DNA from: Halobaculum magnesiiphilum
GTDB lineage: Archaea; Halobacteriota; Halobacteria; Halobacteriales; Haloferacaceae
Direction: 5' to 3'
Length of the DNA stretch: 64,000 nucleotides
NCBI RefSeq assembly: GCF_019823105.1
Contig: NZ_CP081958.1
Coordinates: forward strand, 1,488,001 to 1,552,000
Shown: positions 53,001 through 58,141 of the stretch, in pieces
Layout of the letters: each line of letters begins with the position of its first letter
Position numbering within the stretch: the first letter of the stretch is position 1
Position numbers and translations under genes: made by a program
The notes under the pieces: model-generated
Seen by the model: only the letters and a program-made list of their open reading frames with translations
Told to the model about the DNA's origin: nothing
The model's database searches: none

Positions 53001-53072
53001 GCGCCGTTGGTGAGCGATTCCGGAGGAATCGCGAGCCTCGGGGCGCGAGTGAGTGAAACGAACGAGCGCGCC
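53001..53072. repeat. tRNA-Gly 5'-end copy and palindromes upstream of the tRNA
   Basis: At 53001-53011 the sequence GCGCCGTTGGT repeats the first 11 bases of tRNA-Gly, 67 bases ahead of it. It is followed by a triloop palindrome GCGATTCC/GGAATCGC with loop GGA (53014-53032) and by arms GGCGCG/CGCGCC around a gagtgagtgaaacgaacg-like loop (53042-53072). The last arm is shared with the tRNA acceptor stem. Confidence 0.75.
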
Positions 53073-53138
53073 GTTGGTCCAGTGGTAGGACATTAGCTTC
53101 CCAAGCTAATAGCCCGGGTTCAATTCCCGGACGGCGCA
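53068..53138 (+). tRNA. tRNA-Gly (anticodon CCC)
   Basis: A complete 71-base cloverleaf. The acceptor stem GCGCCGT/ACGGCGC is fully paired. The D stem is GTCC/GGAC. The anticodon stem TTAGC/GCTAA closes the loop TTCCCAA, giving anticodon CCC. The T arm is CCGGG-TTCAATT-CCCGG. The discriminator is A and CCA is not encoded. No intron. Both sides carry partial copies of the gene ends, described separately. Confidence 0.95.
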
Positions 53139-53243
53139 TGTCTCGAACGCCAGTGAGAGACATCGCCGACGGGAATTGAAGTAGATCGGACGCGCGCAGC
53201 GGCGCGAGCACGTCCGAGCGTGGTTCAATTCCTGGACGGCGCA
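53139..53243. repeat. tRNA-Gly trailer element with inverted and direct tRNA copies
   Basis: In order: hairpin TGTCTC/GAGACA around GAACGCCAGTGA (53139-53162); an antisense T-arm copy GGAATTGAA (53172-53180); a stem CGGACG/CGTCCG (53187-53216); and a 23-base near-copy of the tRNA 3' end (53221-53243, ttcaattcctggacggcgca). The antisense and direct copies pair with each other. The same order occurs behind tRNA-Lys at 57987-58097. Confidence 0.85.
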
Positions 53244-53983: not shown

Positions 53984-54742
53984 TCACGCCGGCCAGTCGG
54001 CCGGATCCGCGTCGATCCGCTCGCGCAGCGTCGCGGTCGCGTCGGCGTCGTACCGGAGGACGCGCCGCCACCACGGGCCCTTCCCCGAATCGGCCGAGAG
54101 ATCGGTGACCAGCCGGTTCGCGTCGGCGCCGCCGGCGGGCGTCGACAGCGGGACCGCGCGGTCGAACAGCCGCGAGCCGTCGGGGTCGCCGCGGACGACC
54201 ACCGCGGCGTCGAACGACTCGCGGCGGGCGTGCGCGTTCGAGGCGAACCGCTCCCGGGTCGCCGCGTCGGATTTCCGGTACTCGTCGCCGGTGAGCACCT
54301 CCGCGACGCGGAACTCGCCGATCAGGAAACAGCCCCAGTCGGGTGGCAGCCAGTCGACGCGGTTGGCTCGGGCGGGGCGGTCGGCGCGGTTTGCGCGGTC
54401 CGCGTCCTCGTCGCTGACGGTCAACGTCGCGTAAAATAGGAGGGAGTCGCCGGGCTCCAGCGCGGAGATCGGTCGGGCCTTGACGCCGTAGGGATCGCCG
54501 TAGGTGTACGCCTCGCGGCCGAGCGCGCCCGCGAACTCCGGATCGAGGTGGACCGGGCGGTCGACCGCGTCGTCGGGGACGTACGCGGCGAGGTCGAGGT
54601 CGGCGTAGGTGGGGACCGGCCCGGCGGTCGGCTCGCGCTCGGGGATCGGGACGTAGACGAACGAGCCGTCCGGGTACACCGGCCCGCGACGACCCGGGAG
54701 GTTCGTGTTGGCGGCGACGTTGATGGCGACCGCGCGGGGCAT
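53984..54742 (-). CDS. Nmad3-like nucleotide-modification-associated protein
   Basis: A 252-residue protein. The start AVAINVAANTNLPGRRGPVYPDGSFVYVPIPE (key RGPVYPDGSF and VPIPE), then HLDPEFAGAL, TYGDPYG, LEPGDSLLFYATL, WGCFLIGEFRV and a late AVPLS match what I recall of the Nmad3 family, predicted to bind or modify nucleotides and often linked to phage DNA modification. Here it stands alone among housekeeping genes. An Arg/Asn-rich insert (about 110-128) has repeated ANR/RAD units. Activity is inference only. Confidence 0.7.
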   Translation of the reverse strand: MPRAVAINVAANTNLPGRRGPVYPDGSFVYVPIPEREPTAGPVPTYADLDLAAYVPDDAVDRPVHLDPEFAGALGREAYTYGDPYGVKARPISALEPGDSLLFYATLTVSDEDADRANRADRPARANRVDWLPPDWGCFLIGEFRVAEVLTGDEYRKSDAATRERFASNAHARRESFDAAVVVRGDPDGSRLFDRAVPLSTPAGGADANRLVTDLSADSGKGPWWRRVLRYDADATATLRERIDADPADWPA

Positions 54743-54826
54743 GCGATCGCGTTGCGGCGGCGACGGCTTAGCGTCGGCGACCGCGGCGCGTGTCGGCCGC
54801 CGTTCGCCTCGCCCGACCGTCAGCCG

Positions 54827-54986
54827 TGGTTCGCTTCGCTACCGCTCGGCAACCCACGCCGAGACACTTCTCGCTGCGCTCGAACCGACTCGTCTACTAT
54901 CAGTCGCTACGCTCCTGATACCACCTGAAGACTGCACTCGCTTCGCTCGGTTGTCTTCCGTAGTTTGCCTCGCTACCGCTCGGCAA
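54827..54986. repeat. Copy of the rdgB 3' end plus core-type hairpins
   Basis: The rdgB stop region (cgctaccgctcggcaa, 54971-54986) recurs with few changes at 54837-54852, 134 bases further downstream of the gene. Between them lie hairpins with inverse core sequences: TATCAG/CTGATA around TCGCTACGCTC (54898-54920), GAAGAC/GTCTTC around TCGCTTCGCTC (54927-54958) and the core TCGCTGCGCTC at 54871-54881. This fills the 230-base gap beyond rdgB. Confidence 0.8.
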
Positions 54987-55602
54987 ACCACACCCCGAAC
55001 TTCTCCAACGCCCGCCCGCGGTGGGAGATCGCGTTCTTCTCTGCGGCGTCCATCTCGGCGAACGTCGACCCGTCGTACTCGAAGATCGGGTCGTAGCCGA
55101 AGCCGCCGTCGCCGCGCGCCTCGACGATCTCGCCGCAGACGACGCCCTCGAACAGCTTGACGGGGAGCGGCTCGGTCTCCGCGTCGTCGCGCTCGGCCCC
55201 CGTCGCGGCCGCTGCGACGCGGTCGTCGCGGTCGACGGGGTCGGGGGAGGCGTCGAACGGCTCGCCGTCGCAGTACGCGAGCACGCAGCGGAACGAGGCC
55301 CGGCGGTCGTCGAGCTCGGCGTCGACGAGTCGACGGACGGCCTCGACGCCGATCGTGTCCTCGACGTACGCGGAGTACGGGCCGGGGAAGCCGTCGAACC
55401 CGCGGACGAACAGGCCGGCGTCGTCGACGAGCACCGGCTCGCCGGCGTGGCGGTACGCCTCGCGGGCGCCGCGGGCGGCGATCGGCGCGAGGTCGTCGGC
55501 CTGGATCTCCGTGTAGTCGAAGTCGAGCTGGGAGACCTCGTCGCCGAGGTACTCGCGGGCCTCGCGGACCTTCCCGGGGTTCGTCGTGACGTAGCGGAGC
55601 AT
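54973..55602 (-). CDS. rdgB: XTP/dITP diphosphatase
   Basis: A 209-residue Ham1-type house-cleaning NTPase that removes inosine and xanthosine triphosphates. The start LRYVTTNPGKVREAREYL carries the TNPGK motif, VLVDDAGLFV the SEDSGL-equivalent, GYDPIFEY the FGYDP loop and EKNAISHRGRAL the ISHR end. An acidic insert (about 120-145) is halophile-typical. It ends GVWFAER; a copy of its 3' end lies further downstream. Confidence 0.93.
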   Translation of the reverse strand: MLRYVTTNPGKVREAREYLGDEVSQLDFDYTEIQADDLAPIAARGAREAYRHAGEPVLVDDAGLFVRGFDGFPGPYSAYVEDTIGVEAVRRLVDAELDDRRASFRCVLAYCDGEPFDASPDPVDRDDRVAAAATGAERDDAETEPLPVKLFEGVVCGEIVEARGDGGFGYDPIFEYDGSTFAEMDAAEKNAISHRGRALEKFGVWFAER

Positions 55603-57878: not shown

Positions 57879-57986
57879 GGGCTGGTAGCTCAGTTAGGGA
57901 GAGCGTCCGGCTTTTAACCCGTTCGGACGGCGCGTGCGTGCGGGGAGGTCACCGGACGGTCGGGGGTTCGAATCCCTCCCAGCCCG
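57879..57986 (+). tRNA. tRNA-Lys (anticodon UUU) with a 34-base intron
   Basis: Exons 57879-57916 and 57951-57986 give a 74-base tRNA. The acceptor stem is GGGCTGG/CCAGCCC. The anticodon stem TCCGG/CCGGA closes the loop CTTTTAA, giving UUU. The T arm is GGGGG-TTCGAAT-CCCTC and the discriminator is G. The intron (57917-57950) lies between positions 37 and 38. A bulge-helix-bulge forms: central helix CTTT/GAGG, bulges TAA and TCA, and intron stem CCCG/CGGG. A tRNA splicing endonuclease should remove it. Confidence 0.94.
57917..57950 (+). other. Canonical-position archaeal tRNA intron (BHB type)
   Basis: 34 bases, starting acccgttcgg and ending ggggaggtc, inserted after A37. The cleavage sites fall after the second base of each 3-base bulge (TA|A and TC|A). 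The two flanking helices, CTTT/GAGG and CCCG/CGGG, are continuous, as the archaeal splicing endonuclease requires. Confidence 0.88.
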
Positions 57987-58141
57987 CTATTCCTGCGAGC
58001 GTCAGCGAGCAGTGAATAGCGCCCGCTGGAGGGATTCGAAGTAGACGGCGGCGAGCGAAGCGAGCCGACGGCGTGGTTCGAATCCCTCCCAGCCCGTTTC
58101 TGTGTGCAGCACCGCGACGAGCGAAGCGAGGAGCCGCGGTG
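57987..58141. repeat. tRNA-Lys trailer elements with inverted and direct tRNA copies
   Basis: First a hairpin with arms CGCTATTC/GAATAGCG around a loop holding GAGCGTCAGCGA (57985-58021, sharing the last tRNA bases). Then the antisense T arm GGAGGGATTCGAA (58028-58040), a core GAGCGAAGCGA (58053-58063) and a direct copy of the last 22 bases of the tRNA (58076-58097). The antisense and direct copies pair over 13 bases without mismatch. A third hairpin CACCGCG/CGCGGTG (58110-58141) again encloses GAGCGAAGCGA. Confidence 0.9.

Follow-up and report, generated by a model that had tools for sequence, protein, structure and literature searches.

The locus studied here raises the question of why the 3' end of a protein gene is found again a short distance behind the gene. 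The gene is rdgB, which matches its family model above the cut-off and encodes a product of 209 amino acids that ends in VWFAER and is followed by a TAG stop codon. In the window (the whole stretch of 64,000 nucleotides of Halobaculum magnesiiphilum, genome G000, that was analysed) it is flanked by two tRNAs that bear the element described below, 2-3 kb off on either side. The initial annotation reported that the last 16 bases of rdgB recur 134 bases away with three inverse cores in between, and since the gene seemed to follow the pattern of the two tRNAs it concluded that the process is not tRNA-specific.

The array behind rdgB

We found both the copy and the cores, and the copy is larger than had been described. 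It is a repeat of 57 nt with 79% identity (54804-54860 against 54938-54994, an offset of 134 nt), of which TTGCCGAGCGGTAG plus some flank is an exact portion. The three TCGCTNCGCTC cores between the copies lie at 54871, 54904 and 54938, and over the whole window this core occurs 9 times where 0.83 occurrences are expected, a count reached in 0 of 100 shuffles. Two more cores, with a 12-nt loop (GAGCGGTAGCGA), are present at 54847 and 54981. Followed along the gene strand, the core positions of the array are 54981, 54948, 54914, 54881 and 54847, and they belong to two hairpins in alternation, repeated every 67 bases, which makes the 134-base copy (2 x 67) unit 3 of an array. The array consists of three degenerate 67-bp units and is a matter of several copies, not of a one-off (Table 1). 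The stem of its middle unit is changed yet still paired (TATCAG/CTGATA), and the rdgB stop codon falls inside the loop of the first hairpin. Further downstream a 252-aa protein is encoded at 53984-54742; none of the NCBIfam models searched matched it, and a TATA-like GACGCTAAGCC stands just upstream of its start in most relatives.

A unit is laid out as X (the 3' end of the gene), a loop, X' (an inverted copy of X) and E (GTAGAC..hairpin..GGCGTGG), after which the next X begins. At the tRNA-Gly and tRNA-Lys of the window the order is tRNA, hairpin, X', E and X. At tRNAs X starts at T54 of the T-loop and runs onward, and in rdgB it starts at GTGG|TTC/TTT. The loops and E of the units are hairpins capped by GA-XC-GNA-GX'-GA. 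Taken as a single strand, a unit closes into a dumbbell, with the end of the host gene as its stem and two hairpins as its caps.

Table 1. Positions of the rdgB array units and of their tRNA counterparts in the window.
Feature	Position	Strand	Composition and remarks
rdgB gene	54973..55602	-	XTP/dITP diphosphatase, TIGR00042
Unit 1, hairpin A1	54960..54991	-	GTGGTTTGCC - GAGCGGTAGCGA - GGCAAACTAC; last rdgB codons form the left arm, TAG in loop
Unit 1, hairpin B1 (E-like)	54921..54959	-	GGAAGAC..core..GTCTTCAGGTGG; homologous to E in the alignment with relatives
Unit 2, hairpin A2	54898..54920	-	TATCAG - GAGCGTAGCGA - CTGATA; equals the rdgB 3' end in G010
Unit 2, element E2	54854..54897	-	GTAGACGAG..GAGCGCAGCGA..CTCGGCGTGG, then copy of the gene 3' end; R1 match 54842-54909, E=9e-6
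Unit 3, hairpin A3	54826..54853	-	rdgB-end copy of the initial annotation; equals the actual rdgB 3' end in sister G006
Unit 3, degenerate remnant of B hairpin	54800..54825	-	57-nt repeat
X'-E-X behind tRNA-Gly(ccc) 53068-53138	53169..53243	+	X' 53169-53180, E 53181-53223, X copy 53224-53243
X'-E-X behind intron-containing tRNA-Lys(ttt) 57879-57987	58029..58096	+	covariance model

A tRNA-associated element

E was first searched by a loose regular expression, which was uninformative and was replaced by a covariance model; the genuine cases of the pattern search come from at least 5 genera and lie nearly all behind tRNAs. The covariance model (R1) was built from 21 sequences, leaving out rdgB of G000 and including rdgB of other species. 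It has only three matches in the window, at tRNA-Gly (3e-16), at tRNA-Lys (1.7e-12) and, more weakly, at rdgB, which bears out the claim that the gene shares the pattern of the two tRNAs. The X'-E-X structure covaries, with 16 of 23 pairs changed on both sides and a score of 0.314 compared to 0.125 when shuffled and at most 0.093 when slid. R1 is present in 266 of 292 Halobacteria genomes, with up to 17 matches per genome. In a sample of the phylum it was found in 20 of the 24 Halobacteria and in none of the 124 other genomes; in low-GC genomes, part of this absence is to be expected on grounds of composition. Three copies of the element that score identically and repeat every 122 bases, at G152:C1:63212-63521, are likely a recent expansion.

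A tRNA was detected in front of 47 of the 50 R1 loci examined, and 2 are rdgB. The one further locus has a tRNA-like sequence in front, apparently intron-containing and missed by the tRNA program, which brings the tRNA hosts to 48 of 50. The element has the orientation of the tRNA strand at all loci tested, and many tRNAs are without it. The X copies are on average 94% identical to their tRNA (mostly 20/20) and retain the whole tRNA 3' end, even the portion outside the X'/X pairing, so something maintains or renews them. At rdgB, X'-E-X likewise stands directly behind a gene whose 3' end is X, with a pairing of X that is weak in G000 and better in G007; what sets this host apart from the definition of the element is that it is not a tRNA.

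We also compared the last 30 nt of 801 genes to their 250 nt downstream, with re-paired controls, in 820 kb of G000; the genome-wide counts come from these 820 kb together with whole-genome pattern and model searches. At a score of at least 16 there are 9 copies against 0.0 in the controls, rdgB itself scoring 16. The check proposed in the initial annotation, in which such copies are scored at core-bearing gene ends, gave an excess at a score of at least 11, with 8 of the 24 ends that carry sense core hairpins having a copy against 36 of the other 777 (control 0.2 of 24). The long-offset copies are those of tRNA-Leu, Lys, Gly, Asp and Arg plus rdgB, and the other high-scoring copies at protein genes are mostly offset by some 1-45 nt and resemble simple duplications. 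At four protein genes (G000:C1:1588583-1589380, 1063296-1064282, 1265379-1266044 and 1591390-1592211) the last 17-23 bases are duplicated 1-20 bases downstream without hairpins.

Given this distribution, the statement that the process is not tRNA-specific was too broad: apart from rdgB, both the R1 loci examined and the long-offset copies belong to tRNAs, and in a set of 80 rdgB loci from named genomes no array lies outside Halobaculum. The process is tRNA-associated and has been joined by rdgB, which is a genus-specific capture of the element and a rare exception, and does not argue for a process that acts on gene ends in general. Simple tandem duplication or slippage at the end of the gene, without any special element, would fit the 67-bp period, the exact 134-bp change in copy number between sister species and the short-offset duplications of other genes. 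It leaves unexplained the inverted copies X' and the conserved E common to tRNA loci across the class, which contradict it as a full explanation; we regard it as very improbable in that form, and it remains part of the change in copy number.

Core hairpins as DNA or RNA

The core is one case of GA-X-C-GNA-G-X'-GA, where X and X' now stand for the variable bases of the core. Among 45 intergenic hairpins whose stems have 4 or more pairs, the two bases are complementary in 44 (GC 21, AT 19, CG 4), compared to 10 of 31 in the coding background, for which no stem was required. The loops are GNA triloops in 71 of 91 cases and GNNA tetraloops in 12, all of the latter being GNYA and 0 of 12 GNRA; the reversed-sequence control gave 2 triloops. 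According to the published rule, DNA mini-hairpins are extraordinarily stable when a GNA or GNNA loop sits on at least two GC pairs (PMC4686876), and the core loops, of the forms GC-GNA-GC and GC-GNNA-GC, fit it, although such mini-hairpins are known as a physical motif and not as a haloarchaeal family of genomic repeats. The loop rule points to DNA over RNA without proving it; the cases are related by descent and hence not independent. Long regular arrays of cores are also present in G047, which is of another genus, with periods of 65, 125 and about 156 (G047:C1:1244916-1245316, 341320-341705 and 120377-120934).

Another reading is that the hairpins are functional RNA, as structured tRNA trailers or 3' UTRs under selection for processing, stability or termination. 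The strand of the element and its strong covariation would agree with this, as would the good RNA folding of the rdgB array (z -2.3, equal to that as DNA, z -2.5) and the sense bias of core hairpins near genes, which in codirectional gaps are sense in 29 cases and antisense in 11. The loop types are not those expected, however, many tRNAs do without the element, the E families differ between sister species at one and the same site, and a terminator-like site is absent from the rdgB strand. An intrinsic terminator was rejected, there being no hairpin with a T run on that strand, and a known RNA family was rejected as well, as Rfam gives only the three tRNAs above gathering score in the window. 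We consider a role as RNA unlikely to be the explanation. Sense core hairpins 0-2 bases after the stops of protein genes, with no recognised X'-E-X, are found at G000:C1:1100306-1100481, 1428477, 1548837, 1606987 and 1713811.

Exchange of units and their origin

Comparison with relatives shows that the end of rdgB varies with the array. In the sister species G006, whose rdgB is 99% identical, the interval from the stop to the next gene is exactly 134 bases shorter than in G000, and the gene terminates in what G000 has as unit 3. In G007, G003 and G010 the gene closes with a hairpin of the unit-2 type, behind which stand the same E element and a copy of unit 3, and G001, G004 and G009 are without an array at rdgB. 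The RdgB C-termini vary accordingly (WFAER, WFQER, WYQERSD or WFVERQ), and members of the array replace the end of the gene. Hybrid hairpins, with the left arm of one type and the right arm of another, occur at rdgB of G007 and at tRNA-Gly(tcc) of G000, which means that crossovers fall in the core.

The tRNA loci of G000 and G006 differ in similar ways. At tRNA-Gly(gcc) and tRNA-Tyr, E alone is swapped for one from a different family (60% and 50% identity, with flanks at 87-100%), at tRNA-Glu the trailer hairpin alone is replaced (E 98%), and the Lys, Thr and Arg tRNAs show no exchange (E 97-100%). Units have been gained or lost at Leu, Asp, Val and Gly(tcc). We rejected a permuted order of units at tRNA-Asp, where G006 carries an additional unit beside the tRNA. 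At tRNA-Met2, G006 has the order (Xt) L (t'X') E (Xt), a direct repeat of X and about 14 nt of trailer (t) with inverted copies of both. This unit is absent from G000, and as G008, G001 and G002 carry units there, the absence is more likely a loss by deletion, and the reading of the G000 locus as an empty target was rejected. The tRNA-Met(cat) of G000 was rejected as a clean empty site too; about 2 kb downstream of it comes a TnpB element, beyond which a remnant of the tRNA 3' end (X) is left (G000:C1 ~2055101-2057900), at a place where the sister species has an array.

These exchanges could also be the work of a putative dedicated recombinase, for which X'-E-X would be a folded single-strand site (attC-like); the enzyme would cut at GG|TTC within the T-loop and insert hairpin cassettes beside the tRNA. 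The junction at TTC is sharp in 21 of 21 aligned sequences, entire cassettes are exchanged with their flanks intact, and the extra units adjoin the tRNA at G006 Asp, G006 Leu and G000 Val. Crossovers are found inside cores too, however, and the canonical integrated element at tRNA-Gly of G006 uses a different site of 42 nt. The integron attC core GTTRRRY does not describe the junction, which reads G|TTC(A/G)A.. with C as third base in 21/21. This is the strongest of the rivals, and we still find it rather doubtful. The integrated element just named is 3.4 kb long, sits in tRNA-Gly(ccc) between the tRNA and its X'-E-X array (G006:C1 ~1500288-1503818), and its own att site begins in the anticodon loop and extends as far as the end of the tRNA.

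The architecture, the exchanges and the changes in copy number are direct observations. For their origin we favour copying at the level of DNA, because a forward-inverted-forward order with hairpins at both turns is the expected product of fold-back. A strand ending near the end of the gene would fold on a mini-hairpin and copy X back as X', and the same strand would fold again at E and copy X forward, giving an inverted triplication as in hairpin or ODIRA template switching. Units and caps could then be gained, lost and swapped wherever X copies or shared cores recombine. The GTGGTTC of rdgB resembles the E/X junction, and such events would exchange its last codons. That the rdgB feature is a three-unit array, of 67-bp period, of the haloarchaeal tRNA-type hairpin element, with units made by fold-back copying and turned over by recombination, has in our judgement a little less than an even chance; the rdgB end would be repeated behind the gene because it was drawn into this array. 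Against fold-back, the sense lean of the core hairpins would also fit a role as RNA, and predicted RNA and DNA folds are equally good. The conservation of E across loci and genera is unexplained by chance fold-back alone, so a dedicated enzyme may be needed. The unit-free Met2 site of G000, too, probably reflects a loss.

The units could further be remnants of the IS200/IS605 type (PATEs) or scars of integrated elements. Haloarchaea are rich in palindrome-bearing elements without a transposase (PMC3119063), and tRNA ends are common integration sites. An IS605/TnpB origin was rejected all the same, as twelve TnpB loci have neither a core hairpin nor a significant R1 match; PATEs make no target duplication, while X (in part with t) is duplicated at each site here, and the integrated element at tRNA-Gly of G006 lies outside the array with an att site of its own. 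We give this origin hardly any credence.

The element appears to be undescribed in the literature and the Rfam searched, the literature search for such arrays, with most subscription journals outside its coverage, having found no description. The E. coli tyrT repeats are 178-bp units with the last 19 bp of tRNA-Tyr and encode rtT RNA. They are similar as tandem units behind a tRNA, each with a copy of the tRNA 3' end, but they are confined to a single locus and are not known to have X' or a conserved cap E, or to occur class-wide at numerous tRNAs. Palindromic extragenic repeats such as REP/BIME are likewise short, clustered, noncoding hairpins, but their family signature is the stem, whereas the halobacterial element keeps its loop conserved and has a stem custom-copied from the neighbouring gene. 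The PATEs and SMRs of Haloquadratum are also haloarchaeal, short, palindromic and free of transposase, but the available text of PMC3119063 describes no target copy or tRNA targeting for them, and the PATEs are IS605-related, a relation that the element does not show. ODIRA gives forward-inverted-forward copies with loops at the junctions (PMC10766183), an order also found at tRNA-Met2 of G006. It is known from yeast and human, with far larger segments and pre-existing chance repeats at the junctions (PMC10766183), whereas the element is of 20-60 bp, recurrent and has conserved caps. The array units fall far short of the length of a normal replication origin.

More broadly, and only tentatively, we suggest a class-wide haloarchaeal element without genes, which with exchangeable DNA mini-hairpin caps would copy the 3' end of its host forward and backward into a dumbbell, form waxing and waning arrays behind tRNAs, and have colonised a protein gene in Halobaculum, where it rewrites the last codons. 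If this is true, a hairpin structure that is recurrent and self-templated sits at tRNA ends in most Halobacteria and would provide a small natural system in which to study hairpin-driven template switching. It would also explain variable gene ends, and serve as a warning that haloarchaeal 'partial tRNA copies' are not always scars of integration.
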